Shown one piece after another: positions 3,043-51,699 of a stretch of DNA of 64,000 nucleotides (positions are counted from its first letter, which is position 1; each line of letters opens with the position of its first letter). This stretch comes from Isoetes taiwanensis (Eukaryota; Streptophyta; Lycopodiopsida; Isoetales; Isoetaceae). The DNA lies in assembly GCA_021234155.1 (NCBI GenBank), contig JAJEKV010000060.1:3766451-3830450 (forward strand). Reading direction: 5' to 3'. The position numbers were made by a program, and so were the translations under genes. Under the pieces are notes generated by a model, which saw nothing but the letters and a program-made list of their open reading frames with translations, searched no databases and was not told the origin of the DNA.

Positions 3043-3718
3043 ACATTAAATTGTTGGCCTCATCAATGCTTTCACATTTTCTGATAAGAGAATTGCAAAC
3101 AACAACATTTAGGACAAATTCATTTGCAATTAAGCTTGCATGAATTAATCTGCCAATGTATGAGCACTAAGGGCATTTACGAACGATAACTTGTTTGGAA
3201 GAATAAGTTGTTTGAACATATTCTGCAAAACTACAAGAGCATGTTTGTGATACCCATAATGCACATAAGCAGCAACTGCTAGATTCCAGGATATTACATC
3301 TTTGTGAAGCAAATTGTCAAACACCAAATTCGCATCATGTAAACATTCACATTTGTTGTAGAGGTTCAGAAGTGCATTCTCTACAAAGGTGTCTGCTGCC
3401 AAAAGATTAGAAATAGCACGAGAATGCAATGGCTTTCCACCTGCTAATTTTGGAGGACTGGAACATCCATAAAAAATACATATAAAAGTATATTTATCTA
3501 GTTTTATTCCTTCCATTTGCACTTGATTAAAAAAATGCAAAGCTCTCTTGGCATGTCCACAACTCCCAAATGCTGTAATCATGGAATTCCATTTGATAAT
3601 ATCACATTCTTTAATTCTCTCAAATAAAATATGAGCATCATTCACCATCCCCGTATTTCCATACATGTTCCAGTCTTCTTTTAGGAATGAAAGCATGAAT
3701 AAGTTTACCCTTTTCTAG
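3043..3718 (-). pseudogene. PLS-type PPR protein, broken
   Basis: Minus-strand frames show consecutive PPR repeats: DIIKWNSMITAFG, ALHFFNQVQMEGIKLD, FVENALLNLYNKC, LVFDNLLHKDVISWN. PPR proteins bind organellar RNA. The main frame covers 3145-3696. The repeats continue upstream in another frame (KGKLIHAFI near 3700), with part of a repeat lost, and downstream in a third frame (GRLIHASLIANEFVLN near 3100, past a stop). At least two frame changes make it a pseudogene. It ends about 60 bases from the left end of element K1. Confidence 0.8.
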
Positions 3719-3779
3719 TGCTAGAAAAATCTTTATTGATTGCGTTGCCTATTATATTGGGCATGTTTGACTCCTTTTT

Positions 3780-3803
3780 GGGTTGCCCCTAGGGGGCAAA
3801 CCC
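3780..3803. repeat. Terminal palindrome of K1
   Basis: The first 24 bases of K1 form a near-perfect palindrome centred on CCTAGG. They read GGGTTGCCCC, then TAGG, then GGGCAAACCC. The same palindrome, one G longer, starts K2 at 45696-45720. The following 60 bases hold repeated, partly palindromic GCATAT/ATATGC words. Confidence 0.8.
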
Positions 3804-4060
3804 TCGTTTATGTGGGTATGTGGGCATATCCAGGTATATGTCGGCATATGCCTAGCATATACCGGTGGATTTGCTAAAACTGGCCGGTGCCTCGTAAGTG
3901 CTTTCATCATCCAAAATTCCATCTCCTTCGCAGCGGCTATGGCGCACCTTGTTTATTTTTATGCCCCGCTTTTTCTCTAAGTTTTTGCCTGCTCATCCTC
4001 CTCGTTTTTGCCCGCTCATCGCCATAGCCACTCTTTGGAGCTTCTTTCCTGGTAGTATGA

Positions 4061-4344
4061 AGCAACGACAAAGAATTTTCAAGTCTGTATATCTTTGTTG
4101 GACCAGGCGGTCAATGTGGCAATCAAATCGGTGCCAAGTTTTGGGAATCAATCATGCATTCCGCTCTCGAATCGCCATTAGATATCCGCTTTAAAAAAGT
4201 CAAAGCCGCTAAATGGATAGAGGATCACCGCCTCAGATCATTTGGCCGGGAGGCAAAATCGCCACACAGATGTCAAAGCACCGGGAATGCCCTTTTATCC
4301 ATATGCAAATCTCTTATAGCGGGAGGAGTCGCAGGAGGAGTGTA
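4061..4344 (+). pseudogene. Chimeric ORF: beta-tubulin N-terminal fragment fused to the carrier's first exon
   Basis: At 4106-4147 fourteen codons read GGQCGNQIGAKFWE, identical as I recall it to the nucleotide-binding N-terminus of plant beta-tubulin. The frame stays open through an unrecognised linker of about 50 residues (IMHSALESPLDIRF...) into SICKSLIAGGVAGG, the start of the mitochondrial carrier's first repeat, and stops at 4342-4344 where an intron donor is expected. There is no ATG in frame before the tubulin block; the frame opens after a TGA at 4058. It looks like two captured fragments joined by chance in one frame. Expression is unknown. Confidence 0.6.
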
Positions 4345-6108
4345 ATGTATTGAATTTTTTTTTTTTCTTTCTAGTTCTTTCTTAATCCTAAGTTGATCCT
4401 CTCCGCTTTTTTTTTTGTTTGGTTATAATATCCGTTATGACATAATCAAGAATATTTGGTTGCAGGTCCGTAATACTGTGGCACCTTTGGAACGCATGAA
4501 AATTTTGCTTCAAGTGAGTGTCATTACTATATTTGTTACAGATATCCCCTTCTGGGCTTGTCCTTTTGAATTCTATTCTGGGTTTGTTTTTACTAAGCCA
4601 TTTCTACTCTGTAGGTCCAAAACCCATATAATCCTCAATACAGTGGAGCACTTCAAGGCTTAAAGACAATCTGGGGGCAAGAGGGTATGCGTGGATTCTT
4701 TAAAGGCAATGGCACTAATTGTGTACGCATTGTACCAAATTCTGCTGTTAAGTTCTACAGCTATGAACAAGCTTCAAGGTCTGTGGCCATTGGTTATATA
4801 TTTCATGTTTTTAATCCTGCGTTACAACACTATCACATAGTGTATATTTTTTTTCGTATTTGTGGTTCCATGATTAGTGTATTTTCTAGTTTGTGAAAGA
4901 TTTTACTGCAGTGATTTTAATTTTTTTCTCTGTTTAAATAGGGCAATCTTATGGCTCTATCGACAACAAGCAGGTTGTGGTAAGTACATCCTTTCTTATT
5001 GCTTTTTTCTGGCTCTAATTCATCTGAATAGTGCCTCCGTTCGATGTTCGTAAAATGCGAGCTTACACCGTTCTTCGGCTTTGTGTCGGTATTATTGCCA
5101 TGTTCCGCTACTTATCCACTAGATATGGTGAGAGGGCGTTTGACAGCTTCAGGTTAGTTATTTCGCTATGTATCTTCAAGTGATTTATTGTGTTCAAGAG
5201 ATCAATGTTTGGAACATTGCACGGCGCGCCTTCTGGGGAAATATAGAGGCATGGTCCATGCAACCTCTACTATTGTAAAGGAGGAGGCTTGAGAGCATTA
5301 TACAAAGGCTGGCTTCCATCCGTCATTGGAGTGGTAAGGTTACCTCCGATGCATTCCATGGGCCATGTGATGAACTTGGCTTGTTCCTATTAAATGCATG
5401 TTCTTTTGATTTAAAAACAATCTCATAGACATCCGGATGTATTGATACTTAATGTAAATTACGTGGAGGATATCATAGATGGTCTATTAGCTATTTCTTT
5501 TGCCATAGGCTTTTCTATCAACAATCTATGATGCTCGAGATTTTTTCTTGCCTCGCAACAAAGGATGTTAATGTTGATAATCTCTTGTGTGGCTTATATT
5601 TGCAGGTACCTATGTTGGTTTCAATTTTTGTCAGATATGAGACTTTAAAAGATTGGGTTGTAAAAGTTTCTACCTTTGACACTAAGGATGATTCTCAATT
5701 GAGTATAGTAACAAAGCTAGGATGAGGTGCCGTAGCTGAACAGTTATCGACCGTTGCATAGCCCTTTGGATGTTGTCCGCTTGGCGGATGCAAATGGTTG
5801 GTTGGAAAATGCATCACCCATTGTGACTACAGAGGGAAGATGGCAGCTCCAGTTCAAGACGATGGTATGGTGGATGCTTTTAGAAAGACCAAAGAAACGA
5901 GGGTTTTGGTGCACTTTACAAGGGGCCGCTCAACTCGTGAAGGTTGCCTTATTTTTAATGCTTAGTTTGTTACCTTCCTTATGCCTACCGATAACATTTG
6001 ATGTTGATTTGATCTCGTTGCGTGTCGTGCCATCCAGTAGCTTTAGCATTTGTGACATATGAAATCATGAAGCACCTCCTTGAGTTGAGATTCTGGATAA
6101 CCGATTAG
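4300..6108 (+). pseudogene. Mitochondrial adenine-nucleotide carrier (ADNT1-like), decayed copy with introns
   Basis: Mitochondrial carriers swap metabolites across the inner membrane; ADNT1-type members move AMP/ATP. Exon remnants in order: SLIAGGVAGG; TVAPLERMKILLQ (4466-4513, donor GTGAGT); a long piece (4615-4778) with GFFKGNGTNCVRIVPNSAVK; AILWLYRQQAG (4942-4979); SATYPLDMVRGRLT (to 5152); YRGMVHATSTIVKEE then ALYKGWLPSVIGV (to 5333); YETLKDWVVK and PLDVVR (from 5606); GMVDAFRKT; FVTYEIMKHL and a final RFWITD with TAG at 6106. Introns are kept, so this is a DNA-level copy. Several one-base indels break the frame (for example in KEE-GLRALYKG and in the PLLRLG block) and RRRMQMVGW is shifted. 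It is carried inside K1. Confidence 0.85.
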
Positions 6109-6470
6109 GTGGTCTTTTCTTGTAACCCTCCGGGTTTATGAATTACGAGCTTGAATCGACCTCCTTGGAGTTGAGTTCGATTACGATTAGGTGGTCTTCT
6201 TTTGTAACCCTTCCTCGGGTTTATGAGTTACAAAACTTGAATCCAAATTTTGCTCAAATGTCGGGCCTTATTTGTCGAGATTCTGGATAACTGATTAGGT
6301 GGTCTTTTTGTAACCCTCTCGGTTTATGAATTACGAGCTTGAATCGACCTCCTTGGAGTTGAGGTTCTGATTATCGATCGTGGTCTTTTTTGTAACGCTT
6401 CGGTTTATGAGTTACAAAGATTGAATCCAAATTTTGCTCTAAAATGTCAGCCCTTATTTGTCCCTGATAA
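6080..6470 (+). repeat. 190-bp tandem duplication of the carrier gene's 3' end
   Basis: The block starting GAGATTCTGGATAACCGATT at 6088 recurs at 6278 with one change, and everything between follows the same order. Each unit is itself made of two related halves sharing GATTAGGTGGTCTT..GTAAC and GTTTATGA(A/G)TTAC. The unit starts in the last codons of the carrier (RFWITD-stop), so the duplication arose after the coding end was in place. Confidence 0.8.
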
Positions 6471-7316
6471 TTGCAGATTTACTACTTTGTTGTTGGCTTT
6501 TGTTCTTGATTCAACGTGAGTATACCTTAATAATTTTGTGAATATTCTATAGACTAAAACTCATTTATATAAAACTCATTTTTAAGCACTTTGCAGCAAC
6601 TCAATTATGAAATACCATTACAGTAGGGAGAAACGAGATGAAACGAGCAAATATCCCTCCTAAACACTCGTATGGTTGTATTCAGTACAAAAAATGAGGG
6701 GGGTGGTGAACACCAGTATTTTAGTCCGAAGCCTGTGAAACTTGATCTGGGCCTGCTTTAACTCTAAACTCTTGATCTTTCAAGATTTGACTGAAGAAGA
6801 GGTGGATGGGAAGCTGCAAGGAGTTATATTAGAGGCAAGAGGCAACATAGACTGATCAATCAGTTGGTTAAATACTTTTAAAATGTTGTACATAGAAAGG
6901 TATTGTGTTCAAGTCTCTCTTGAGACATTTAACAGGTGGCCTCTTTTTTTAATGCATAAACAACCAATAGTTCACAATTGTGTAAAATATATAAGAGCCC
7001 AATGTTTCGCTCTATGGTGTGGGGTGTGTGTGACACTGTGAGATAGGTATATGTCCATAACCAGTTCCATTCCTTTGCAGCCTGAGGATATTCATGCAGA
7101 GATACATTCGGCATAGGTTAGGGCTTTGTATACGATGAATATGTTCAAATCCGGCCACATATCACATTTGGCATTAAGAAAACAACATACTATGTTCATA
7201 GTATTTACACGGCTTCACACAAAACAAAAAACACCTAGCACAAAAACATCAAAACAGAAACCATGAAAATATATTTCTCGGGCATTGAAGGGCAACCCCT
7301 CGTGCGCAGCACCTTG

Positions 7317-8087
7317 TCTTTTTTAGCTTATGCTGCTAGGTCTGTTAGATCCTATTACGAGAAACATCTTTCTGCTTGCATGGATATATTATATTTGGGC
7401 ACTTGTCTTGACTTTGTTACTAAAACCTTTTGTGCTTACATTGTACAGTCACCATAGGTTATATTAAACCTATTTTCCTCTTTGCCATTCTGGTTTGACC
7501 TTATGGCTCTATAGTTCTTCCGATAGAGTAGCTCGTCTCCAAGCTTTTCCTTTGTGTCCTAGGGACTTAGTAACTTTGTGTTATCTTTTGACTTAGGTAT
7601 TATTGTTGTTCGTTTTAGTGGTTTCTCAGGGTATTGTCTTGGTATTGTAGTTGGGTTTTGGTGTTGTCTAAGGGTATCGACATAAGTGTTTTTGTTTAGC
7701 ACACTCCTTAAACATTACGTTGCTTCGTTCAGTTCTAGGAACATGTAGGGGTTTTCTCATCACACATGGGATTCAACGCGGTAGTTTGAAGGTTATTGCA
7801 TGCGCATGAGCAACGGATTAACTATCGACATCAAACACTCTTATCTTAGGTCGGTTTGCCTTTTGCTTTAACTTTGGCATCTTTTCTGAGTATTGACTCG
7901 GATTGACCTCGCCCTCAACTTTGACTTCAAATGTATTTCGAATTGTTTTCTCTTTTTCCTTTGAGTGGATTTTCCTTTGCCCCTTTTTCCTCCCATAATT
8001 CTTCGTTTTTCCTCTGGGTTATTTTTCTTCGGCATAAAATTTTATCTTTTTCGCATTTGTCAACCTATTAGCTAATGTGTAGTTATA
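7317..8087. other. T-rich spacer right of K1, no gene seen
   Basis: Strongly T/G-biased sequence with only short frames and no known protein motif. It starts with CTTTTTT directly after the K1 end. No repeat shared with other parts of the window was noticed. Confidence 0.5.
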
Positions 8088-11778: not shown

Positions 11779-12843
11779 ATGGAGAAGGCAAAGGATCTGA
11801 ACATTTTGTACTCCAGCAAATTTCCCAAGCTGCTGGAAGACTATGATCTGCTCAAACGGATCGGCCAAGGTGGGCAAGCTATTGTTTTCAAATGCAAAAG
11901 AGTGGAGGACGGAAAGGAATTTGCTTGCAAAACCACCTCCAAGAACGCAGATTATGTTAGAACAGAGATGGAAATCATGCACAAATTAGCCAGCTGCCCT
12001 GGCGTCGTGCATCTAGAAGAGGTGATCAGCGACAATGATTCCTGGCATTTTATTATGGAGCTCTGCGAATGCAGCCTGGCAGACAGAATAGGGGAAAAAG
12101 GCAATCTCTCAGAGGCAGAATGCGCTCTTCTTATTCAAAATCTGGCGAAGACTCTACAGAATTTACACGCAAATGGGGTTGTCCATCGTGATCTGAAGCC
12201 GGCAAATATTCTGATAAGCTTGGGCGGAAAACCCTACGATGTAAAAGTGTCGGATTTTGGGATTTCTGCTTGTTTCGGTGCTCCAGATACTCTGTATTTT
12301 TCTAAAGTTGTGGGCACTCAGAGATATTTGGCACCAGAGCTTGTGGGCGGAAGATATTCCAAGGAGATTGATATCTGGGGACTGGGAATTATTCTGTATG
12401 AAGCACTTACTGACTGGTATGCATTTTCGGAGCTTGAAAGCTGCGACGTTCAACGTAGGCTGGCTAATGGGGAGGATCTGACAGTTTCCCATTTAGATTT
12501 TCCTCGTGATATGTCATCCGAAGCAAAGGACCTTGTTCTGGCTATGCTGCAGCCCAACCCAGAAAAAAGAATATCGTTGCAGCAAATTTTATGCCATCCC
12601 TGGGTGCTGAAGCATACTTTATCCGAATCAGCGGGCAGCAAACCAAATTGCAGAAAAAACCCATTTGTAGCACAGGCCAAATCCAAGCGTCAACGAATTC
12701 TGATGCAACAAAAGGAATCGGATGTGGATCTTCAAAGCTTGAATGGGGAATGGAAAGCTACTCCCATCTTACATGACAAATTTCTACTACTTGGAAAGCT
12801 TTGCTGCCATAATTTCCTTCGTCAAGGAATGGAAGTAATTTAA
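11779..12843 (+). CDS. Serine/threonine protein kinase, CDPK/CaMK-like, single exon
   Basis: 354 codons from ATG 11779 to TAA 12841. The longer open frame begins at a TTG, so this ATG is the best start. Kinase landmarks: glycine loop GQGGQA at residues 29-34 (third glycine replaced by alanine), ATP lysine in FACKT at 51, glutamate in TEME near 63, catalytic loop HRDLKPAN at 136-143, DFG at 159-161, APE at 185-187, DIWGLG at 198-203. All catalytic residues are present, so it should be active. The C-terminal 75 residues after the kinase end (HPWVLKHT) are basic and have no EF hands, so it is not a full CDPK. It resembles small cytosolic or nuclear CDPK-related kinases. No frame break is seen; it is the best candidate for a working gene in the window. 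Confidence 0.88.
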   Translation: MEKAKDLNILYSSKFPKLLEDYDLLKRIGQGGQAIVFKCKRVEDGKEFACKTTSKNADYVRTEMEIMHKLASCPGVVHLEEVISDNDSWHFIMELCECSLADRIGEKGNLSEAECALLIQNLAKTLQNLHANGVVHRDLKPANILISLGGKPYDVKVSDFGISACFGAPDTLYFSKVVGTQRYLAPELVGGRYSKEIDIWGLGIILYEALTDWYAFSELESCDVQRRLANGEDLTVSHLDFPRDMSSEAKDLVLAMLQPNPEKRISLQQILCHPWVLKHTLSESAGSKPNCRKNPFVAQAKSKRQRILMQQKESDVDLQSLNGEWKATPILHDKFLLLGKLCCHNFLRQGMEVI

Positions 12844-16574: not shown

Positions 16575-18445
16575 ACGGCCGCCGCGATAAGTTTCTTGTA
16601 TAAATAAAGGTGTCCTCCATCCATATCCAATACTTCTTCAAATTTCTTGTCAATTATATGATTTCATATGTTGGGTTTGTCATCTTGGTAGGCGCCAAAG
16701 ATTTGTGCTACTTACATTTTACATAATGTTCTTTCAGCAATGACATAAAGGGAAAAAAAGAAAAAAAATAGAAAGAAACATTTTGGTTAAACATGTACTT
16801 TGATATCTCCTTCATATTCTATTCTATTCTATTCTTCTTGTTTGCATTGGATTTTAAGAAGAGTATATTAATATTTGAGCTTAAAAGACTTTTGGCCAAC
16901 CTTAAATGTACAAATGTGAAGTCTCGTTTTTCATGTAACTTTTATCTGCTTATGAATCAAATTGAAACAAAAGTTCCATTGCATGTGGATCACTTTTGTG
17001 GATGCATGCATGGTTTTTATTTCCATTGGCTTTTCACATGCCTTCGTTTCTTAGTGCCATTTTTGTTTTAAGTATTCACTTTTTACTCCTTTAAATTTAA
17101 AGAAATTGTTGCCACGATTTGTCGTATATATGTTGTAGATTATGTAGTACATAAAGGTTGCAGACTTGTGATAGGTGTGCATCCTAGAATAATTTATCTA
17201 TTGGTATTATTTTGCAAATTAAAATGGTCACACGAGGGCCTAACAATGTAACAAGTTTGAACAAAGTAGTTAACATTTTGACCAAAGAGACAAAATACGC
17301 TTTAGAATGTAGTTACACATGCCTTGTATGTTTCCTAGATAAAGCATAACGGTTTATTCATATAGTGTCCTGTAGCTATAGATGTCCTATCTAATTGCAT
17401 GAGTTAAAGGGTTTGTATATATCTAACAATTGGGCTAACATCTTCCTTGAGTGAAATATATAATATTATCTCTATGTACATCAAGACTTCACTAGCAAAA
17501 ATAAGTTTATTATAGCGCTGTGAAGATTTAAATTGGTGATTGTTGGTATTTTGAGACTATAAAGATTTAAGATTTAAAAATTGTATTTGTTCGTCTAATA
17601 TAAATGTACCTATTCCCAAGAAGCCAGTTGAGTAGTGGAAGCTAAACCATTCAAGGATGCTACAATAAATGCATAGTAACTACCCTTAAGGTGATGGACA
17701 AATGTTATATAGATGGATATAGAATCAATCTCCATATATTTCGCCACTTTCTATTCCTCAAATAGATTTCAAGGCAATTTTTGGACGAGTCGGAGATGAA
17801 CCAATATAGGGGTGTTAATCTATAGCTTCTAAGCAACAATGTTGAAGCTTCAAAGTGCATCAATTTTTGCAATTATATGCTTGTTACAAAGTCAATGGCA
17901 TAGGAAAAAAATGGCAATTATACGCTTGCTGCAAAGTCAATAAGGAAAAAATAATATAACTAATGTGCTCAAATAAATATAATCCTCAACTAAAAAGAAA
18001 ATACGCTTTTAATCTCTATCCCCAAGCTTATCCTACTGCTAGTTAATCTATTTATTCATGCAATACATAACTCTGAGTCCATCTAAAGTCACGTATCTTT
18101 ATATCCACACCTTAATCTTTCCAGGAAATGCGCCTTAGATGTTCCACAGATATCATCTTTCCTCACATTTTCCTCTTTGAGGCTTTCCTTGTTCACCGTC
18201 CATTCCATTAAACATACCATTAATCATAGAGTGGGTCACAACACGATGCCATGTGTTTTGTGAAATTGTTGAAAATGGGTTGATAAATAAGATTTGTGCG
18301 GCATTTTTTGCTATTATTTTTTTAACAGGCTTGCCTAACCCTCAACAACATTTCTTGGCTTCCTAGGCTATCCACATGTATAGCCAACTGGGCTTTATTG
18401 AATGAGATGCTTTGATCTATAATTCTTGAAGGGCTCGCATGAAAA
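16575..18445 (+). mobile_element. Repeat family A, intact reference copy (non-coding)
   Basis: This block recurs, reversed, in pieces at 37468-37861, 38601-39035, 45223-45695 and 51198-51690, and directly at 18765-18900. Put together, the reversed pieces follow this copy base by base in order, so this is the uninterrupted form. It has no ORF of note. Its start carries GGCCGCCGCGATAA(A/G)TTTCTTGT, which also occurs at 53471. Near 17865-17945 there is an internal duplication of about 45 bases. Class unknown: no terminal inverted repeat or LTR pair was identified with confidence. Confidence 0.75.
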
Positions 18446-18469
18446 CAGACAAAAGCTCCCGATAAACAT

Positions 18470-18755
18470 AGGGAATATCCAGTTATATCATCTGGACCCC
18501 AAAAACATTCTACAGATGTCGGTTAAGTTTACCTGCCGAGAGCTTATCGCCGGGATTAAAAAAGCCCTGCCCTTTCAGGTTTTCGAGGAAAAACCCTAGT
18601 GATAAGCCCTCCACAAGGGGCTTGGACACAACATAAGGCTGCAAAAAAACGCTCCCACAAAGAAACCCATGAAGCCTGAAGAAGATAAACTAGAAGCGCA
18701 CATCCCACTGTACCTGCACATCAACAAACTAGAATACAAAGATAAGAATCAACAA
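18470..18755 (+). repeat. Repeat family H, copy 2
   Basis: Aligns with the reverse complement of 1763-2050 over its full length. It contains the core CGGGATTAAAAAA.CCCTGCC and GGTTTTCGAGG. It lies directly after the family A copy and before a second, partial piece of family A, so H may be part of, or nested in, a larger family A element. Confidence 0.7.
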
Positions 18756-18764
18756 ACTGTGCCA

Positions 18765-18900
18765 ATAATTTATCTATTGGTATTATTTTGCAAATTAAAA
18801 TGGGCACCCACAAGGGCCTAACCATGCAACAAGTTTCAACAAAGTAGTTAAGATTGACCAAAGAGACGAAATACGCTTTAGAATGTAGTTACACATGCCT
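18765..18900 (+). repeat. Partial direct copy of repeat family A
   Basis: Matches 17190-17325 (TTATCTATTGGTATTATTTT through GTAGTTACACATGCCTT). It breaks off where the divergent-gene block begins at about 18,905, so that block was probably inserted into it. The continuation after CATGCCTT was not found on the far side. Confidence 0.75.
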
Positions 18901-19128
18901 TAAACAAGATCTCGTTTAATAAACAAGATCTTAAACACTAAGCCTGTAGCTGCATTATAGTAGAATGAAACAACCCCCTACAAAAGTTAAATGGCATCCA
19001 CACGCCATCATTTGGAAACTTTGCCCCTAATGGTACAAGTATTCAAAATGTTCTGTTATGGTTCATCTTCTCCTGTATACATGGAAACATCAAGTTAAAG
19101 TTAAGCTATGGCGAGACTGCAGTAACTA

Positions 19129-38600: not shown

Positions 38601-39035
38601 CAAGCTTGGGGACAGAGATTTGGAAGCGTATTTTCTTACATTAGTTATATTCTTTTTTCCTGATTGACTTTGCAGCAAGCGTATAATTGCCATTTTTCTC
38701 CTATGCCATTGACTTTGTAACAAGCGTATAATTGCCAAAAATGATGCACTTTGAAGCTTCAACATTGTTGCTTAGAAGCCCTAGATTAACACCCCTGTAT
38801 TGGTTCATCTCCGACTCATCCAAAAATTGCCTTGAAATTTGTTTGAGGAATAGAAAGTGGCGAAATATATGGAGATGGATTCTATATCCATTTATATAAT
38901 ATTTATCCATCACCTTAAGGGTAGTTACTGTGCATTTATTGTAGCATCCTTGAATGGTTTAGCTTCCACTACTCAACTGGCTTCTTGGGAATAGGTACAT
39001 TTATATTACACGAACAAACACAATTTTTAAATCTT

Positions 39036-42000
39036 TTTTTTTTTTTGAGGGATAAAGAATTGACTTTATTTACTTTAAAGGAATGGTACAAAGCCACATG
39101 GCAGGGGTGTATCCAACTGCAAATCTGAGATGGAGATAGCTACATGGCTCCTTCTTGCACTATTCCCTTGTTCGTCCTAGTGTAATCTTAGGTAGGTGGC
39201 CCAAATTTCAACCTTTACTTCTTCTTCACTCTCGAAGACTAGCCTGAATTTTTTCAGCCTTTCATGTACTATATGTAGAAGCTGATATGGTGATATGTCT
39301 GCTTGATTCTCATCAAAGACCACGGCATTTCTCCTTTTCCATATTGACCCATTGTCCGGGGCCCTAGCTATATGAAAGGCCACCTTCTTCATGGTGCACC
39401 ATTCTAGGGGGAGGATACCCAACAACAGTTCCTTGGTACCTAGCGGGTATTCAAAGCTATCCAGACTCCATGCCCATACTACTTGCAGCTTCTCACACTC
39501 CACCAGACAATGTTCTATGGATTCCTGTTCGGCCTCGCACAAGGGACATACTGGGCTGACGTTGTTGTCCCATTTTGCGACTAGTTGATTGACCCTTGGG
39601 ACCCTGTGTATCACTTGCCAGAGGAAAACATTTATCCGTGGGGGAAGATATTTCTGCCACGCATCTCTCCATATGTTTATAAGGTTTTCCTCCGTGACTA
39701 CTATATCCCATTTGGTAGGTATTGGAAGTAAACCCTGAGTCCTCAGGCTTCTGTAACTTGATTTCACAAACTTATTTGGCAAAATCACGGGTGCAAAACC
39801 CATGGATTTTGATCTCAAAATTATAGTGTTTGGGAGTTTTTCCCATATTATTCTGTCTGCGTCCTTTAAGGCAAAGCGTGCACTGAAATTCTGCCCAACC
39901 GGCTAAGCTGTACTCCCTTGTACCATTGAGCACAAGAATCTATTCCACAATTTTTCCACCTCTTTCTGATCCTTGCATCGACCCACCATACCTAAGGGGC
40001 CTTGTTTATTGTGCGGTACCAGCGGGTACCCACCATGGAGGGGAAGTCTACGCCGAATTTTTTGGCGTCAAGCGTAAATAGCTTTTTATGATTTGCCACG
40101 CCCGAAATTAATCCCTTCAGGGAATGGAGAAGCTTCTCTACATGGCTTAAGATCAAAAAGTGACCATGGGAGTGAGACTTTGGAGGAGGCCTTACTATGC
40201 TTACATGGCGCTAATAGAGCACAGTTGATGAGATGCATACACGGAGACTTCACCTCATTACGTATGATCATCCATATGAATTTAAGCTATTAATACTTTG
40301 CTCTGTAATGATATGTCGACCATTCCAATACCTCCTTCTGCCTTATCTCTCTTGCACTTCCACCAAGCGATTTTGACCACTGCCCCTTCTTCATTCCCTC
40401 CCCAGACAAAGTTGCGGATTAGCCCTTCTAGTTCCTGTGCCTTCTCCTTTGGGGCTAGTAAGATTGATGACGTGTAGACATGAGTATTGCTTAACACATG
40501 TTTTGCCACAGTAATTCGACCTGCAAGTGATAGCTTTGCCACCTTCCACCAGTTTAAGTGTTTCTGCAGGCCTAGTAGTATTTCATCCCATATTTGTGCA
40601 TTAGCGATATTGATGCCCACTGGAACTCCTAATAGGTTGGAATGCTCACCCTCTGGGATTATTTTCCATGGTAGGATTGTCAAGCATGTGGGATGCGGTT
40701 CTTCCAACGGCCATTATGCTTTGCGCATTTTTCCGGTTTATGAGACATCCACGAGGCTATTGAGAAGGAGGCTAGTAATTTGCACGCACTTGACGGGTTA
40801 TCTTCCTCTGCCTCTATGAATAGAAATGTGTCGTCTGCATATTGGTTACATATTTGTTGAGAGCCATCCGGCATTTCTAGTCCACGAATCATACCATCTG
40901 CAGAGGCTTGCCGCGAATATTTGTGAAAGTGCTTCTGCTGCGATATTGAAGAGGAATGGGGCTAAGGGGCACCCTTGCACGATGCCCCTCTTTATGTCAA
41001 ATATTGGAGGGTTCACCTTGGAATAGGACTAAGGCTCGAAATGATCGCTGAGAAGTTTCATGACCCCTTCCGTAAAAATATTTCCACAACCCGGCAGAGC
41101 ATCATTTTATCTGAAAAACTCCATCGATCTTCTTTTATCGTAGCTTTGGTAAAATCTAGCTTTAGATAGGCCACCTTTTGTCTTGTTTTTCTAGCCCAGT
41201 GTAAACCTTCGAATGCTGCTGCGACATTGCTCAAGATACTCCTGCCCGGCAGAAAGCCGGATTGGGCTTGTGAGATGCCTTCAGCTAGAATTGGCTTAAT
41301 CTTCTCTGCCATAGCCTTAGCTATGATTTTATAGAAAGCAGATAAAAGTGTGATGGGCCTCCAATCATTGTAGGTGCTTGGCTCCTTACTCTTGGGAACC
41401 AGGGCAATACATCCTGTGTTCAGTCTTGGATTTAGATTTTCAGCTTGCATAAAGTCTGTGTATGTAGAGAAGATATCATCCTTGACCCATTCCCAATTGC
41501 ATTGATAGAATTCTATGGGAATTCCATCCATACCCGGACATTTATTTTTAGCCGATAAAAAAGTGGCCTTTTGAAGGTCCTCAGCAGAGGGGGAAGATTT
41601 AATATGTCTTCTTTGGCTAGAGTTCATTATAGGTGAGACTTTTGAAACCACCAGACTCTTGAAGGTCTCTTGAAATGGTAAGTTGTGTTCTCCAAAGAAA
41701 GCATTGAAATGGTTAAATAGATACCTTTTGAGATCTCACGGGGATTTGAGAATCGGCCGTCATTTTGAGTGATGGATGATAGTGTGGAAGATCTCTTCTT
41801 CTCTTTGGTTGTCTTGAAGAAGAACTTTGTGCATTTATCAGCTTCTTTTAGCCACGTCAATCCTGCTTTACATCTGTTTTCAGCTATCTTGACCTCTTCT
41901 AGTGTCTTTATCTGTTCTATTATCCTATTCTCCTCCATCCCATCATTGGGGCCCAAAGCTCTAAGTGAGAGGAGTTGGCCATAAAGAAAATCCAGTTCTT

Positions 42001-45000
42001 CCCTTTCTTTTTGCACTTTAGCTCTACCCCAACTTTTGGCGTAATTTTTGATATTTGAAAGAGCTGTTATCATAGTTTCCATACCAGATCCCGTTCTAAA
42101 AGTCGATTGCCATATACTTTTGCAGGTCTCCACAAACTCTGGGTCTTTCAAGTATCTGGTATTTAATTTGAATACTGTTTTAGAAGTTCTGAACTGATAC
42201 TTCTTAGTAGATATCACTTGTGGATTATGATCGGATATAGCATTCTTTAATTGATTGGACCTTTGGAGGTAAGGGAGGATGGAGAAAGCCACGTCATTCA
42301 TATAGCATCTATCGTGTCTTGCATACGTCCTCCCTGTTCCCAGCCATCCATTACACCATGTAAATCCCTTATCTCCGTCCAGCTCCATAAAGCCCATATC
42401 CTCCACCAATTTACACCACTGAAGTTTCTCAAATCCGTGTACAATTTCTGAGGACACCCCTTGTCTATCCTCAGCTGCCTCCACCATATTGAAATCCCCT
42501 GCCATAAGCCACGCTACCTGACTTCCAAAGCTTTTCAATCTGTGTCTGAGAGTGGCCCATAAAGCACCTCTACCCCTGGGGTTGTTATGGGCATAGATAT
42601 TTACCAATCCCCATATTCTACCTTCGTGTTGCCATATAATTATAGCCCATCTACCAAACCTGTCTACCTGTGAATCACATACTTTTACGTCCTTCTTCCA
42701 GGCGATCAGAGTGCCTGCACTAGAGGTATCTTTTACTGCAGCAATACCCACGTATTCTTTACCTATTGTGTTGAACAATGCGTGTATCTCCCCCTGTTTA
42801 CACTTATGCTCCTGCAGGCATATTATGTCTGGATTTATCTCCTTGATTGCATTTGATAATCTGCTTTTCTTGTATTCCGAGGATTTTACTCCCCTGATAT
42901 TCCAGCTAAGGATCTTATAATTCATGGGGCAATGTTTGGAGACCCTTTCTTCCTTTTCATGTTGCCCGTCCCATCTGTATCGATTACTTCTGCCTTTTTA
43001 TTTTTTTTGCCTGTTACACTAGGCGGGTCCTCATCCACCCCATTCTCCTCTTCCATTGGAAGGTTTGCCCACATATTTTTGTGTGATGGGAGGGCACTCT
43101 CTATAGCAGCCAGCTCACCACATACTACCATTTCTCCTCGACTTCCTTTCACCTTATCTGGCAATGCCTCCTCGGAAATCATTACTTCTTTTATGTATTG
43201 AGAGAAAGGATTGTTTACCTCAGAGACGAAATGAGTGCTGAGAGACATTTGAGGAGGGGACTTTGGGCGAGGTCCTCCACTCTTTCGAGCGATATTTCTG
43301 GTTCTCCCTTTTTGCCTGGCGCCTCCCACTTCCCAAGTTTGGCCTTCTGTTTTTGACGAGCCCTCTACAGTTGTAGAGATGGTGGGCTCCAAAGTAGGTC
43401 TCATGGTTGGAGATGCCGCGTTGCTAGTGTTAGGTGTTTCTACACCCCGACTTGGAGCACTTGGAGTGGTTGTTGCAGGAGTAATGGGGTGGCTCTTTGG
43501 GGACCCAGCACTTGTAGGGGGATGTTTGGGATTATCGCTCTGTGCCTGATGTTGAGGACTTATCTCTTCCTTAGAACTTGCCTGAGGGTTCTCTTCCAGC
43601 CCTTCAATTTTTAGATCTGGGAACATTCTGTATATTTCCCACTTGTTGGTCAATTTCAAAGGAAATTTGAAAGAGCAGTTGCCACTCTTCACTATCACGC
43701 CTTTGGGTATGCTCGCCTTTGCTGGAATGGCTACACAGATCCTTGGCCCTCTGGCTATGGAGTGTGAGATATAAGCACCTATTGTGTTAGCAATGACCTT
43801 TAAAAACTCAGGTATCAGCATGTCTGGAGGTAGGTGTTCAATCTCCAGCCAGCATGGGATTTTGATTGCTGACATTTGATGGGGGGAGAATCCAGGAGAA
43901 TAGTATTGATATAAGATGTATTCCCCCATAAAAGTGTCCGTTGCACGAGCAACCATTTTATCTACTGCGTCCTCACTTTGGAATAGGATGAGGAAGAAGT
44001 TGCCACCTAGTGCCTTTAAAGATTCATGCTGAGGCAAACCTAACCTTTTCAAGTGAGTTGACAACCAAAATTCTAGTTTTCGGAAGTCCAGGAATCCTCC
44101 TGTAAAGAATCCAATAACTGCTCGTGATACCAAGTTCTCCACCACTTTTACATGCGTACCATGATCTATCTCTGCTATTGGGAAGTTATCCTCCACATCT
44201 ACTTCCATGTTCCCAGCACTTTCCGTTCCAAATTTTTCAGGATGGCCTTTATTTAGTTTGCCCAGATCTTGGGCAAAACCTGCTTCTACTATTTTAAGTG
44301 CTGCATCTACTCTCAAACTCCTGGCTATCTCTGTTGGTACATTATTCTTTATCCACTCTGAAAATCTAGGCTTGTTAACTCTTGCTATAGTGTCGTTGTT
44401 TTTCCAAGCCTGCCTTGCATTACTCCTTGCAGCGCCACTAGCTGAGTCTATATTTGCGGTATTGTTATGCCCTTCTTGAGTTGGAGTTTTTGTAGTATCG
44501 GTAGTTTGTGGAGACAGTTTTTTCGCTATGCTTTCATGAGATATCCCCCCTTTTGTGATGCTCACTGTACTCCATTTCTCTTCCCTTATAGCGCCTCCCA
44601 AACCTACGGATTTGTGCTTCGTCTCTGCTAGTTTTTCATTTTCTTCCAGCTCTTTCTCGTTTGCTTCTGTTTCTTCTGTTTCTACTTCTTCCATCTGTGA
44701 CACTTCCATGGATGCTTCTTCCATATGTGAAGCTTCCATTGGTGAAACTGATCTGGCAGGTTGTGTGAATTTTTCACGCCCTCCCCGCACTATCTCTTAC
44801 CCACGACCCTAACATTGCAGATTTCAGTTTACGGATAGCACCGATGGCACTCACACTTGCCTTAGAGGCCAGATCTTCCCCTGCTGATACCTTATCTACT
44901 CTATTGCTCTTTATGGAATGATTAATGCTATGCGAAGCAGGGGCGGCTGCAAATGGGCCTGGATTCTTATCTGAGAAACTAATGAACTGGTTTACCTCAT

Positions 45001-45222
45001 ACTGGGCAAAAGCCCCAATTTTTGAAGCCGATTTGTTGGAGGCCCCATCGGCTGGGGGCGATATGCAGACCCCTGGAGTCTGCCGGATGGTTGTGGACCA
45101 GCCTAACACGCCACCGGGCGAGGCGAATCGGGGCCCCGGGCCCCGTTGTTCTTACAGGTCGGACCCAGGTGACTTCCGACCCGCCACCTCCCTTCTTTTG
45201 CGCCTCCATTTTCCAAAACCCC
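39036..45222 (-). mobile_element. LINE1: full-length L1-type retrotransposon with 17-bp target-site duplication
   Basis: Flanked by CACAATTTTTAAATCTT at 39019-39035 and 45223-45239. The same bases occur once at the empty site 17569-17584 (reverse strand). The 3' end carries a poly-A tail, seen as the T run to 39046. From the 5' end it encodes ORF1 (to 42922) and ORF2 (from 42925), then a 3' UTR of about 140 bases. It inserted into repeat family A. ORF2 is broken, so it can no longer move itself. Confidence 0.95.
39177..42925 (-). pseudogene. LINE1 ORF2: endonuclease and reverse transcriptase, frame-broken
   Basis: The apurinic-type endonuclease (41627-42925) is intact: SWNIRG, LQEHK, NIYAHN, GDFNM and ISDHNP carry the catalytic Asn, Glu, Asp and His. 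The reverse transcriptase is spread over several frames: PGMDGIPIEFYQ, TGCIALVPK, FLPGRSI and LKLDFTKA (41058-41651); IVQGCPLAPFLF; QYADDTFLF with the catalytic YADD (40680-40892); SLAGRITVAKHVLS (40282-40707). A C-terminal zinc knuckle, CPLCEAEQESIEHCLVEC, lies in 39177-39818. At least five frame breaks mean no full enzyme. Confidence 0.88.
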
Positions 45223-45227
45223 CACAA
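42922..45227 (-). pseudogene. LINE1 ORF1: RNA-binding protein with DUF4283-like domain
   Basis: The main frame, 42922-44790, begins after frameshifts: earlier pieces lie at 44997-45227 (MEAQKKGGGGSEVTWV) and 44774-45109. It has an acidic stretch (EVETEETEANEKELEENE), then a globular domain of about 170 residues (FTGGFLDFRKLEFWLSTHLK, LGGNFFLILFQSEDAVDKM, IKIPCWLEIEHLPPDMLI) typical of ORF1 in plant L1 elements, then a Pro/Ser/Thr-rich tail. It binds element RNA in the family. The stop TGA overlaps the ORF2 start as ATGA (42922-42925). Confidence 0.8.
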
Positions 45228-45842
45228 TTTTTAAATCTTAAATCTCTATAGTCTCAGAATACCAACAATCACCAATTTAAATCTTAACGCTATAATAAAT
45301 TTATTTTTGCTAGTGAAGTCTTGATGTATATAGATATAATGTTATATATTTCACTCAAGGAAGATGTTAGCCCAATTGTCAGATATATACAAACCCTTTA
45401 GCTCATGCAATTAGATAGGATAATCTACAGCTACATGACACTATATGAATAAACCGTTATGCTTTATCTAGGAAATGTGTAACTACATTCTAAAGCGTAT
45501 TTCATCTCTTTGGTCAATCTTAACTACTTTCTTGAAACTTGTTACATTGTTAGGCCCTTGTGGGTGCCCATTTTAGTTTGCAAAATAATACCAATAGATA
45601 AATTATTCTAGGATGCACATCTATCACAAGTCCACAACCTTTATGTACTACATAATCTACAACATATACAGGACAAATCCTGGCAACAATTTTTTGGGTT
45701 GCCCCTAGGGGGGCAAACCCTTGTTTATGTGGGTTTATGGCATATCCTAGGTATATGCTAGAATATACCTAGGATATGCTGATGACGGCTCAAAACCTAC
45801 TATTCGCTGTAAACTCTCGGTCACCTGCGTTCTGGATCCAGG

Positions 45843-47886
45843 ATGCTCCAACCGAGTAACTGGCAGGGCAGACCGAAGATTTTCCTTCCTCCAATGTCTC
45901 AATTTCTTACAGTCTATCAGTCGTGCAGTCAGTATCAAGTCCATGTATGTGCTTCTATTCTGCTTATCAACGAAAAACTTGACGACGGTAGGAACAGAAA
46001 TTTGTTTTCTAATGGCGAAAGCCAAATTTTGGAAACGGCACCGGTTAAACTAGGGAAGAAAGCAGTTAAAACCCAATATTTGACTCTCGCTTCTTTATTA
46101 AGAAGATGCGGCGATATGAAGAATTTGTCTGAGGAAAAACGAGTACACGATTACATCAAAGAAATGGGGCTTGATGGGGATACATTTATCGGAAACCATC
46201 TTTTGGACATGTAAAGAAAATGTGGGAATTTGCCAATGGTATGGACGGTATTTGATTCAATGCCTAACAAAGATGTTGCTTCATGGACAAGCATTATTGG
46301 GGTTTATGCACAACATGGAGAATTTAAGTTGGCACTCAGATTGTTTTGCCAAATGCGTGACCAGGGTGTCCAGTTGGACAAAATTACGTTAGTTTCCATT
46401 CTCAGTGTCTGCCAAGATCCGACTGCTTTGGCTGATGGAAAGCTCATCCATGTCCTTATTCTAGATAATGGATTTGAGGGTGACTTAGTTACTGGTAATG
46501 CACTTGTCAACATGTATGCAAATTGCCAAACTTTACGTGATTTCATGGACTATTATAGCTGCAGGCTACCTTGATCAGGGGCAAAGCAGAGTGGCTCTTT
46601 ATGTTTTGAAAGAAATGCACAACGAAGGAGTGATGCCGGACATGATCACTTTTATAACTATCCTTAACACATGTGCCACTGATGCTAAGCTAGCAGAAGG
46701 AAAAATGATCCATGCATATCTAATCTGTGGCAACTTTAAGCCAGATGTTGTCATTCACACTGCCTTAATGAACATGTATGGGAAATGTGGGAGTCCACAG
46801 GATGCATACGCATATTTCCAGCATATACATTTGCAGAATGTGGTTTCTTATAATACAATGATCTCTGTGTATGCTGGCTACGGGCTGGAGAAGGAAGCAA
46901 TTGAACTTTATCAAGCAATGTACGACCAAGGATTGAAGTTAAGCAAGATCACATTCATCACTACCCTCAAAGCATGCTCTGGCTTAATGTCCTTGGAAAG
47001 TGGCAAGTTTGTTCATGCTTGTATCATAATTGATGCATTTGATCTAGATCTCATGCTAGAAAATGCGCTTATTAATACGTATGGAAAGTGTGGCTGCATA
47101 TTTAGTGCATATGGTGTTTTTGTCAAAATGCAACAGCGAGATGTCATTTCATGGAGCACATTGATTTTTGTTTATGATCTTCTTGGGAAGAGCAAAGAGA
47201 CCCTTGGTCTCTTTCAACAAATGCATATGGAAGGTATAATGCCGAACAAGTTTACCTTTGTCAGCCTTCTTTGTGCATGCTCCAACTTGGAAAATTTAGG
47301 AGAGGGCAAACATATACATGCTCGTGTTATAGCATATAGATTTCAGGAACATGTGGTTGTGGAGTGTTCCCTTGTAGATCTTTATGGAAAATGTGGGAAT
47401 TTGGAAAGTGCTTGCAGATGTTTTGTAAGGATCACAGAACCAAATGTGATTTCATGCACAGCAGTGCTTGCAGCATATGTCCATATTGGATATGGAGGGG
47501 AGGCGTTTCATATCTTTAAACAGATGAGTATAGTATATGTAAAAGCAAATCAAATCACATATATGAAAATTTTAAGTTCCTTTTCTAGTGTAACACTTTC
47601 CATTGGCAAGATGATTCATGCTGATGCCTTACAAAATAGGCTAGAGCTAATTGCTGCTATTGGAAATTGCCTTCTAAATATGTACGGTAGAGCTGGGAGT
47701 TTAGAGGATGTCTGTAAAACTTTTGTCAGAATGTATAATTCTGATTCATTGTCATGGAATGCAATGATTGCAACCTTTTCTCAGCATGGCCATGCCAAGG
47801 CTGCCCTCATTCTTTTTTGGAAAATGTACAAGGGAGGTATGATGCCCAATAGAGTAGCATTTGTTAGTATGTTTGATGCCGGCTAG
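45843..47886 (+). pseudogene. PLS-type PPR protein, near-complete repeats, one stop and one frameshift
   Basis: ATG 45843 opens an N-terminus of about 80 residues that could be an organelle signal, then repeats: VHDYIKEMGLDGDTFIGNHL, a TAA where DMYGKCG is expected (46212), then SWTSIIGVYAQHGEFKLAL. Near 46,550 a frame change with a short loss follows MYANCQTL. About nine more repeats follow in one frame (46498-47886), for example NVVSYNTMISVYAGYG, DVISWSTLIFVY, SLSWNAMIATFSQHGHAKAA. The C-terminal E/DYW region is absent; the frame ends FVSMFDAG. Such proteins bind and edit or process organelle RNA. Here it is cargo of K2. Confidence 0.88.
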
Positions 47887-47889
47887 GTG

Positions 47890-48690
47890 GTGCTGCATTT
47901 TCTTGAAGAAAATCTGATTCATAGTTTTCGGCCAGTTTATAAAGGTCGGATCCATATCTACAGGGGAAATATGGGCAACATCCGGCCAATACTAGATGTT
48001 TTTCCTGCATGCGGATTTATCAGCATTCTAGAAGCTCCTAAAGATGAAGGTAAACTTCTCCATAAAACTGAGCTTCTAAGCCAGTCGATATTTTCTTTAT
48101 CTAGCATAATCTGTCTGTTATGCTTCTATCTTAATAAGATGAGAAATCAGTTAGGATTGTTCTTTCAGATTGCATTCGAATCATGGCAGATTTAAGATAA
48201 GGTAACTATTAGGACCATATCATTCATCAGACTTCACCTTCGATCATAAAATCTGCACTATGATTAGCATTTCGTCTGTTATTCTGAAGCTCAAAAACAG
48301 AGTCAGCCATGCATTTTTCTTTGTTGCACCATGGTGTGGGTTCTCACATCATCGTTGCATTTTTTTTTTACTTGCATTGTGGTCTATCCCTAAGTCTATG
48401 TGCTCTCAGTGTACTAATCTAAGGATGCTCTTTGGATGCTCTTTGATGCTCTTCAACACCACACACTGGCAAAAGTTCAGTGTATGCTGCCTACACATTG
48501 GGCAGGTGATTCATTATCATCGCAACTAGGTTTGGCTAATGTGTAATATTGAAGGAGTTAAATGAGTTGTTATTTAATTGGTTTTATAGGCATTCCCTTT
48601 ATACTCTACACCAGCTGCTTCTTTAATATGTTCTTTAAATTCATAATTCCAAGTTTACTACCTCAAAGTTTCTCAGCGTGGCATGTTCAC
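47890..48690. other. Spacer inside K2 between the two captured genes
   Basis: No recognisable coding. The frame 47887-48195 may be divergent sequence following the PPR repeats but has no motif. A tandem CTCTTTGGATG repeat occurs near 48428. Confidence 0.45.
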
Positions 48691-49842
48691 ATTGGACAGG
48701 CCGAATAGCTTTGTCAGATGCGCCACAGACATCTTGTTAGTCTCCTTGGTTGTTGTCAAGATAACGATCGTCACCTTCAGATGCTGATATATGATTATCT
48801 TCCTAATGGAAATGTCCGCAGCATTTTATACGGTATGCCATGGCTACTATATTGATTTGGTTATTGTCCTATTTACAATTTGTTATAACTACAACATATT
48901 ATATGTTGGCAGACAAAGATGGAAATCCCCGGGCAAGTCTTGACTTTAAACAAAGACTTTCTATTGCTGTTGGTGCTGGAGAAGGTGCATTCAAATATTT
49001 GAAACTACTGTTGTTTTTACCAATACGGAAATTTATTTTGATGCAAGCTTACAATATTTACACGAGGAGACAGCACTGGTTGCACATGCGGATTTCAAGT
49101 CCAGCAATGTTCTTCTTGATGAGAATTTTATTGCAAAGGTTACAGACTTTGGATTATTAGGGCTTTTACAAGCTGGGAAAAGTCTAGGTTCCTCCAGTGA
49201 TGTTGGCACAATAGGTTATGTTAATCCTGAGCAAGTAAGATATAGTCCACAGTATGCTTGCATATTGGAGTAATTTCTGACGGTGGTGACGTTGCATTAT
49301 GTTATCTTAGATACCATCACACCAAAAGGCCATCTAAAAGGAGTGACATATACAGCTTTGGAGTCGTTTTGTTGGAGCTCATAAGTGGGAGGGAAGTAAT
49401 CAGTAAAGCATACGCACCACCGGAGGGCAATCTTATTGAATGGGTAACTTCCAAAACTTTCCTAATCGCTATTCAACTGCCATTCACCTTGGTTATACTT
49501 TCTTTAGTAACATTTACTAGATATGACATTGCTCTTCAATATGGATCTGCCTGCATGTAAGATGATACTATTTGTTGGATGTATAGGCCCATTTAATGCA
49601 TGCAGCAGGAAGCTTACAAATGATTGTGGATAGTGGTATATAGTCTGGGTATTCCGAAGGGATGACCGGATGTTGGCTGTGGCCTTTCAGTGCATAGACT
49701 CCAGTGCATAGACTCCAATGCAGACAAAAGGCCAACAATAAATGGAGTAGTGAATGAACTTGAACAAATCCTGGAAGAAGAGAGAGGATTGGCCACAGGA
49801 GGAACATCAATTGTCACGCTTGGCAGCAAACTTTTCACATGA
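48690..49842 (+). pseudogene. Receptor-like kinase, C-terminal half, decayed with introns kept
   Basis: Exon pieces: HRHLVSLLGCC and IYDYLPNGNVRSILYG (48718-48833, donor GTATGC); LDFKQRLSIAVGAGEG (from 48915); FKSSNVLLDENFIAKVTDFG and DVGTIGYVNPE (49095-49233, donor GTAAGA); KRSDIYSFGVVLLELISGRE and APPEGNLIEWV (49315-49443); AFQCID then INGVVNELEQILEEE, ending LGSKLFT (stop 49840-49842). The catalytic-loop HRD is HAD, the activation start GAAKGL is lost by frame change, and a 14-base tandem duplication near 49,690 shifts the frame. Membrane receptor kinases of this type signal at the cell surface. The extracellular part is absent. Confidence 0.85.
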
Positions 49843-50394
49843 GCCTTATTCTTCTTTATTCTTCTTGTTTATAGTTGTAGAATATCAATCAATTATTTAG
49901 GGGAATGACTTCCTCTCTTCAAATAAACTACTAATGCAGTAACGTCTCCAACAAATGCTATAACACCTGGGATTTACCAGCTTATAATAGATGAAATCCA
50001 GGTGGAAATGTATATTGCAAGTGGAACCAAAAGCTAAAGCTTTGTTGATGGTAAGACCATTTGAAGGTGTTGGTTGTTACCCTTTTGATACTAAAATATA
50101 TTTTCCTTTTTTTTTTATGCTAAAAACTATTCCACAAGAAGTTATTTTTGCCCTAGCAAGGACGTTTATTTATTTACGTGTAAGAGAACATTGTGGAAGG
50201 GCCATATGCATAGCATATACGAACAGGAAAAAGGTGACATAGATGATATTTAAAAAAACTATCCATCTTCCTCGACTAAATCTACAAGAAAATAAGAAAA
50301 GAATTATACCAAATTGTGGTTTGTGCCGCCTTCTTTTTCTTTCAAGAGACATTGGCGTTCTTGGCATGTTGGCAAGGTCTTAGACTTCTTGTTA
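49843..50394. other. Spacer inside K2 after the kinase relic
   Basis: AT-rich with short frames and a T-run at 50107. No gene or shared repeat seen. Confidence 0.45.
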
Positions 50395-50860
50395 GAGGTA
50401 ATTACTCCATGGCGTACAAAATCAAAACCTCAAATGTGCCATTGGAATTGTTAGTGAAGGACGTGGACACACAAAACCAAACCTCAAATGCATCCCAATG
50501 GATTTGTTATTGAAGGACATGAAGGGAGAGATACATTAACGATCCATACGAAGCTAACCACCATGAATGATACATATGGAGAGATATCGGCATTGATGAT
50601 ACATATGAACGCCATTAACGATACATATGAAGCTAATCACAAGATGAACTGGTGAAATGGGGCAAGGCCCATAACCCAATATCAATGTATATACAAAGCC
50701 ATGCACCATTAATTATACATACGATGCTAATCATCCCTAATGTTAATGTATATACGAAGCTAATGACCATTAACAATACGTAGGAAGCATTAACGATACA
50801 TACGAATTTAATCACAATATGAAATGGTGAAATGGGCAAGGATGTCCTCTGGATATTGGC
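50395..50860. repeat. Degenerate minisatellite-like region
   Basis: The words CATTAACGATACATA(C/T)GAA and GAAGCTAATCAC recur many times with changes from 50530 to 50815, and ATGAA(C/A)TGGTGAAATGGGGCAAGG occurs near 50642 and 50820. At 50425-50510 the pair ACCTCAAATG and TTGTTA(G/T)TGAAGGAC is duplicated about 65 bases apart. Confidence 0.75.
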
Positions 50861-51699
50861 GTGAGCTTTCACTAGAGTATGGAGACCTTTGAATATAATT
50901 GCATAGTTTGAAGTTTACTCATGAGATGATAAATAAAAGATGTATATGTGATGTACGAGTCTTGGAATTCTTTCAAGGTGAAGACTTTTTCCTTGGAACT
51001 CTTTTAGGGTCATGCAACTTTTAGAGTAGAAAAATGGTTCTAGATGACGATGGCATAGCTTCATAAACAAAACTCCTGCCCTAAGAAAATGACACCCTAT
51101 GACAAACGAAAAGAACTCGACACAAAATGATGAAACAGAAACCATGAAAACACACTTTTGCAGCACTGGAGGGCAACCCCTCGTGCGCAGCACCTTGTTT
51201 AAATTTAGAGGGGTAAAAAGTGAATATTTAAAACAAAAATGGCACTAAGAAACGAAGGCATGTGAAAAGCCAATGGAAATAAAAACCACGCATGCATCCA
51301 TAAAAGTGATCCACATGCAATGGAATTTTTGTTTGAATTTGACTTACAAGCAATAAAAGTTACATGAAAAATGAGACTTGACATTTGTACATTTAAGGTT
51401 GGTCAAATGTCTTTTAAGCTCAAATATTAATATACTCTTCTTAAAATCCAATGCAAACAAGAAGGAGATATCAAAGTACATGCTTAACCAAAAAGTTTCT
51501 TTCTATTTTTTTCTTTTTTCCCCTTTATGTCATTGCTGAAAAAACATTATCTAAAATGTAAGTAGCACAAATCTTTGGCGCATACCAGGATGACAAACCC
51601 AACATATGAAATCATATAACTGAGGAAGAAATTTCAAAAAATATTGGATATGGATAGAGGACACCTTTATCTAGACATATATAAAGCAGTTTGATTTTT

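Follow-up and report, generated by a model that had tools for sequence, protein, structure and literature searches.

Two elements with common ends and unlike interiors, K1 and K2, lie on the plus strand of the stretch analysed here, 64,000 nucleotides of the Isoetes taiwanensis genome (assembly GCA_021234155.1, contig JAJEKV010000060.1, positions 3,766,451 to 3,830,450 of the forward strand), which is called the window below and is numbered from its first letter. K1 is about 3.5 kb long with its two 5' T (3778..7316), its limits being drawn from the ends and from a second full-length copy, locus L009; K2 is about 5.5 kb long (45694..51197), its limits being drawn from the ends and from an empty site near 17100-17117 on the minus strand. 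Both very probably belong, as gene-carrying and non-autonomous copies, to a family of Helitron2 type (non-canonical Helitron), referred to here as the K family.

Ends and anatomy of K1 and K2

An earlier note on this DNA, made from its letters, had described matching ends around different interiors, and this holds: the left ends (K1 3775-3860, K2 45691-45777) are 86% identical over 88 aligned bp, TTTTT included, and the right ends (K1 7239-7317, K2 51121-51198) are 84% identical over 79 bp, while the interiors are unrelated, the remaining matches being short and weak and several of them coming from the palindromic left end. With up to three mismatches allowed, GGGTTGCCCCTAGGGG is found in the window at 3780 and 45696 only (0.18 expected) and GGGCAACCCCTCGTGCGCAGCACCTTG at 7290 and 51171 only (0.00 expected). 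A scan of both strands for the layout, free of any given letters (four T, a 9-mer and a 5' hairpin, then the reverse complement of the 9-mer 0.5-20 kb downstream and a hairpin), returned K1 and K2 and nothing else in the 64 kb; 40 first-order Markov shuffles, run as a control, gave 3 hits in total.

Put briefly, the ends read 5'-(TT)GGGTTGCCCC...GGGCAACCCCTCGTGCGCAGCACCTTG-3', with a 9-bp asymmetric inverted repeat and hairpin sequences at both the 5' and the 3' end. Across the family the 5' tip consists of TT followed by the palindrome GGGTTGCCCC-TA-GGGG(G)GCAAACCC, the left tip itself forming one arm of the hairpin (GGGTTGCCCC-TA-GGGGGCAAACCC in K1). The 5' repeat of K1, GGGTTGCCC, and this hairpin occupy 3780..3803, as judged from the sequence, the predicted fold (-9.7 kcal/mol) and an alignment of 16 left ends, in all 16 of which the core palindrome of the hairpin is present; the K2 counterparts lie at 45696..45720 (predicted fold -10.6 kcal/mol). 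The first nine bases recur inverted as GGGCAACCC (K1 7290..7298, K2 51171-51179), followed by the hairpin GTGC-GCA-GCAC (K1 7302..7312, K2 51183-51193) and the tip CTTG, after which host T begins in K1; the K2 right-end features together take up 51171..51197. The inner complement and the hairpin that follows it had both been pointed out earlier, and both are there, the complement standing 18 nt from the right tip and not about 20. The two 5' T are probably part of the element, which gives the limits 3778-7316 for K1 and 45694-51197 for K2.

Farther in, K1 has internal direct repeats of about 190 bp (6084..6462). K2 has a second palindrome near its left end (45740..45779), 95% self-complementary; a second palindrome some 45-85 nt inside the left end is also seen in sister elements, and is near perfect in K2 and L023.

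Copies and insertion sites

The ends were searched for in the whole assembly (1,658,258,908 bp in 1,110 contigs, the window included). The exact 21-nt left end TTTTTGGGTTGCCCCTAGGGG occurs 4,492 times (2,219 + 2,273), a count of tips and not of proven complete elements, and the same pattern read backwards, used as a control, 0 times. For the 66-nt right end a first look gave 737 candidates, and all 40 that were scored had 92-100% identity, one of them over 53 nt only. Setting K1 aside leaves 39 right ends, of which 20 were assessed for pairing, over 9.4 kb upstream of each: a left end in the same orientation (motif with up to three mismatches) is present in 13, and L017 and L022 possess a left end whose hairpin is damaged, being lost or shortened (both stand outside the alignment of 16 left ends), which brings the paired right ends to 15 of 20, at 1.6-5.9 kb from their left ends. 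With K1 and K2 there are 17 both-ended copies at 16 sites, 1.6-5.9 kb long, L011 and L012 being one duplicated insertion, and among the 17 flank pairs compared theirs are the only ones that match each other across the insertion. Paired ends in the correct orientation are what the earlier note had proposed to look for in the genome, with independent occurrence of the ends as the contrary outcome; in this sample the ends go together. These counts support a single family of high copy number, in which both ends and their relative orientation are fixed and the spacing varies. No match to the K ends was found in prokaryote contigs (right end) or in viral contigs (both ends). One locus, L024, has a single right end and two left ends upstream of it (oriented positions 1189 and 5190), like the multi-terminus Helitrons of maize.

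The insertion site of K2 can be read from a copy of its host repeat that is without K2 (16597..17584, minus strand) and in which the empty site is CAATTTCTTTAAATTT; the filled site reads CAATTTTTT, then K2, then TTTAAATTT, and shows no duplication beyond two T. The same host repeat carries, on the minus strand, an insertion resembling a long interspersed nuclear element (LINE; 39019..45239, frames read by eye), which is flanked by a 17-bp target duplication (39019-39035 and 45223-45239; CACAATTTTTAAATCTT), and the K2 comparison is therefore able to reveal duplications. The other full copy of K1, L009, has inserted into a copia reverse transcriptase, in antisense to it: joined with two T left out, its flanks give an open frame and a gapless Pfam RVT_2 match of 65.9 bits; with five T left out one residue is lost (61.5 bits), and with none left out the frame is broken (32.0 bits). 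For the K2 empty site and for the L009 frame alike, the best explanation is that two T come with the element. All 17 left junctions have at least five T and 13 have exactly five, which means three host T if two belong to the element; a T comes next after the right tip in 17 of 17, K1 having a single one. The insertion between T and T that had been proposed is borne out by the empty site, by the L009 frame and by these junctions in T-runs, and the signs that would have spoken for another class are missing, there being no fixed-length target duplication at the two sites tested, and the right tip itself showing no inverted repeat in the comparison of K1 and K2 ends.

Four copies (L011, L012, L027 and L028) lie in longer T-runs; the right flank of L027 matches the tail of the LINE in the window (39034-39438), and that of L028 a repeat adjoining L014. 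LINE insertions may supply targets, since K-family copies stand in long T-runs and at least L027 in a LINE tail. K1 was also considered as an interruption of the neighbouring PPR-like open reading frame (ORF), and this was rejected, no continuation being seen by eye on the other side.

Captured gene pieces

Nine elements (K1, K2, L013, L016, L018, L019, L023, L024 and L027) were scanned with Pfam in six frames, at an E-value limit of 0.01 for the plus strands of K1 and K2 and of 0.001 for everything else. In K1 a mitochondrial carrier exon lies at 4630..4779 (Mito_carr, 5.9e-18), and by eye an upstream exon ends in GTGAGT (about 4514) and the 4630..4779 exon follows TGTAG (about 4614); an intron thus seems to have been kept, which suggests that the piece was captured from DNA and not from mRNA. 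A reading GPGGQCGNQIGAKFWE at 4100..4147 of K1 resembles, by eye, the first exon of beta-tubulin (within the ORF 4061-4345); no tubulin match was returned by Pfam in K1, and the sister elements L024 and L027 have such matches. The cargo of K2 comprises a PPR piece (46215..47886, in the frames 46215-46574 and 46489-47886; PPR_2, 4.9e-10 and 5.9e-47) and pieces of a receptor-like kinase in two frames (48697..49246; PK_Tyr_Ser-Thr 7.7e-08, Pkinase 1.1e-10), the label "receptor-like" being given by eye. Among the best 120 of 746 protein matches to the PPR piece, the best-scoring are about 33-38% identical to it, and those with a named source include proteins of two lycophytes, Selaginella and Diphasiastrum, as well as of ferns, gymnosperms and flowering plants.

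Elsewhere in the family the plus strands hold a ubiquitin hydrolase with zf-UBP (L016), AMP-binding and exostosin (L013), SufE, Ssu72 and tubulin (L024), DnaJ (L023), tubulin (L027) and a protein kinase (L019), with DUF7780 (L018), EGF_Teneurin (L013) and MLLE (L027) below Pfam's own cut-off. In all, 12 gene pieces of about 11 kinds (tubulin counted once) stand above that cut-off in eight of the nine elements, one to three genes each. The earlier claim of different gene cargo in the copies is supported. All 12 are in the sense of the element, and no minus-strand Pfam match was found in any of the nine; a minus-strand ORF of 104 residues in L018 looks gene-like by eye and is without a Pfam match. 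If orientation were free, 11 of 11 in sense would have a chance of about 0.0005, although common ancestry of pieces may reduce the number of independent captures.

Several copies have their cargo in common. K1 and L009 are 95.2% identical over 3,470 aligned sites and L027 and L028 are 96.2% identical, with unlike flanks in both cases; L011 and L012 follow the K1 sequence from position 336 or 310 onward and have a different left part, and other pairs of elements are patchworks. Such cargo-carrying sister copies and patchworks fit the stepwise gain of gene fragments that has been reported in maize Helitrons (PMC3288121), and also the read-through model, for which work on Helraiser gives support (PMC4778049).

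The LINE-like insertion (39019-45239, minus strand) has endonuclease-like and reverse-transcriptase-like frames, by eye, and a T-tract, and a second set of LINE-like frames lies at 56778-60330. Frames resembling phenylalanine ammonia-lyase at 31263-33048 (minus strand), in more than one frame and with a gap, are probably a broken copy, again by eye. A block at 18912-21025 is duplicated at 28082-30714, with 89-93% identity and at a distance of about 9.1-9.7 kb.

Enzyme, proposed mechanism and relation to known systems

For K1 and K2, as elements of Helitron2 type, the course of events can be pictured as follows. A RepHel protein supplied in trans would nick the left border, one strand would be peeled off by rolling-circle replication, which would stop at the 3' asymmetric inverted repeat and its hairpin, and the strand would be joined into a T-run (TTT|T). 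Were the stop signal to fail, replication might read through into downstream host DNA, which would become new cargo and would then spread with the element, genes being gained one by one.

Several observations weigh against the assignment of K1 and K2 to Helitron2. No Rep or helicase match was found in the nine scanned elements. The earlier note had named long copies that encode these proteins as support, and none has so far appeared between K ends: the sole candidate, L014, has a Rep 6.8 kb upstream of its right end and a PIF1 helicase there on the opposite strand, and was rejected as an autonomous copy because both lie inside a separate 8.9-kb insertion that is absent in L010 and because extension of the locus to 24 kb revealed no K left end. 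RepHel loci L032 and L033 are likewise without K ends in the 10 kb read. For five of the 20 sampled right ends (L010, L014, L015, L025 and L026) the stretch read contains no left end; all of these except L026 have one downstream flank in common and look like duplicates of one site, so that the five amount to two sites. Nor are the terminal features universal: of the 16 aligned left ends 14 have the inverted repeat without any change, and of 21 right ends 19 do, while an exact 3' hairpin stem is seen in 18 of the 21 (14 with GTGCGCAGCAC, 4 with GTGCGTAGCAC) and the tip CTTGT in 20. The predicted folds of the 16 left ends show no compensatory base changes, and the case for the 5' hairpin accordingly comes from its conservation and from its agreement with Helitron2 as published. 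The empty site of K2 differs from the filled one by a C/T change besides the two T, and the 3' repeat lies 18 nt from the tip, as against about 20-30 bp, upstream of the hairpin, in Helitron2 (PMC3627910).

Rep genes are abundant in the genome (of 1,813 candidates 150 were scored, all 150 above the cut-off), and the Rep of L014 has many relatives there (1,893 candidates, of which 150 were scored). L032 has a RepHel ORF at 3342-7730 (1,463 residues) with an end near 9113, and L033 (1499-9082) has one at 3153-7835 (1,561 residues); this family has its own hairpin end, a strong palindrome ...GGCGGCCTTGGCCGCCGCGATAAnTTTCTTGTA, and a 12-nt match to the K end in L032 was set aside as chance, the hairpin being missing. 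In L033 the GGCGGCCTTGGCCGCCGCGATAAnTTTCTTGTA end recurs inverted on the other side over about 33 bp, resembling a terminal inverted repeat (TIR), which would be odd for a Helitron. The joined L031, L029 and L014 sequence (24 kb) has an inverted duplication of 99-100% identity (12629-14708 and 17190-19150) within the 8.9-kb insertion. The K family may be mobilised in trans, by a RepHel whose own ends are different.

An enzyme missing between the K ends could also point to a rolling-circle or single-strand transposon that has Helitron2-like ends and is moved by an HUH enzyme other than RepHel, a view to which hairpins and duplication-free insertion in T-runs would be generally suited. We consider it unlikely, given that the order of the features is that of Helitron2 (PMC3627910), that gene capture over multiple kb is a Helitron trait and that the genome is so rich in Rep genes.

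A family of canonical plant Helitrons (Helitron1) with unusual ends would account for the plant host, the gene capture, the 3' hairpin and the insertion without target duplication. It is nevertheless very improbable, as the K family has no 5'-TC, ends in CTTG instead of CTRR, has no A|T target, and possesses asymmetric inverted repeats and a 5' hairpin sequence. The gene-capturing Helitrons of maize have canonical Helitron1 ends and the A|T target, unlike the K family. Gene fragments between fixed ends would also be found in a cut-and-paste TIR (DDE) transposon such as Pack-MULE, CACTA or Pack-TYPE, to which we give next to no weight in view of the right tip without inverted repeat and of K2 and L009 without duplication. 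Equally little is given to assembly or segmental duplication as the source of common ends on unrelated stretches, for although some loci are duplicated sites (L011 and L012; L010, L014, L015 and L025), a single pair of the 17 flanks matches, the ends number thousands and K2 has an empty site.

Beyond the Helitron2-type assignment itself, we tentatively suggest that a plant Helitron2 lineage has turned into a genome-wide exon shuffler, its non-autonomous copies numbering thousands, many being mosaics of sense pieces of host genes, and being mobilised in trans, perhaps by RepHel proteins of a family with different ends, with capture or survival of pieces tied to the direction of transcription. 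If this is true, the rule of Helitron gene capture becomes testable, and the one-sided orientation of the cargo, should it hold up among many more elements, is relevant to the way in which Helitrons take up genes. Annotation that seeks TC...CTRR would overlook the K family, whose precisely defined ends and target site, together with the list of copies, can serve in finding the enzyme.

The likeness to Helitron2 as described in PMC3627910 is close: there the 5' asymmetric inverted repeat is 8-15 bp long and 0-2 bp from the 5' end (here 9 bp and two T away) and is contained in a 5' hairpin, as in the folds of K1 and K2. The target of Helitron-1N1_CRe lies between TTTT and T/C and is not duplicated, much as for the K family in T-runs, while the CRe-1,2,3 elements have duplications of 7-19 bp, none being seen at the two K-family sites (PMC3627910). 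Helentron, DINE-1 and HINE elements resemble the K family in their TT target, in a border string of T, variable in number, that is part of the element, in palindromic subterminal repeats, in a 3' palindrome and in borders confirmed by empty sites (Thomas et al. 2014, PMC4067079). They differ in that the name Helentron refers to an endonuclease fused to RepHel, of which none was found with the K family, and in that the 3' repeat of Helentron-type mite families is farther in, at about 38-60 bp (PMC4067079). No endonuclease domain was seen in the RepHel ORFs of L032 and L033, loci without K ends. Of the earlier "Helitron2/Helentron" label, the part that stands is Helitron2, by end anatomy, T-run and lack of duplication; the strict sense of Helentron, the endonuclease-bearing subgroup, is unsupported because no protein is tied to the K ends. 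FoHeli of Fusarium (Chellapan et al. 2016) has an asymmetric inverted repeat, a hairpin at the 5' end and a 3' repeat that lies about 20-40 bp inside the tip, like the K family, and differs in its termini (TCAG...ATTTT or TGCCT...CTCCTGT) and in a target that is TNAT|T or not established (PMC5148889). The maize Helitrons of Dong et al. 2011 share with the K family several fragments per element and multiple termini, as in L024 (PMC3288121).

In a recent review on gene capture by plant transposons (PMC13317346) the words Helentron, fern and lycophyte do not occur. Among the titles listed from the open-access literature searched, Repbase and subscription papers being beyond its scope, none points to a gene-carrying Helitron2 family in a plant. 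The K family is real and large, and its type is known and ordinary in kind; it is notable for its host, its scale and the orientation of its cargo. The view of the earlier note that such elements would be notable in a plant is weakened by Helitron-5_SMo, an element of the lycophyte Selaginella. Helitron-5_SMo and Helitron-1_CRe are both in the Helitron2 list of Bao and Jurka 2013 (PMC3627910). From the Helitron2 elements listed there the K family differs in the host-gene cargo that it holds.

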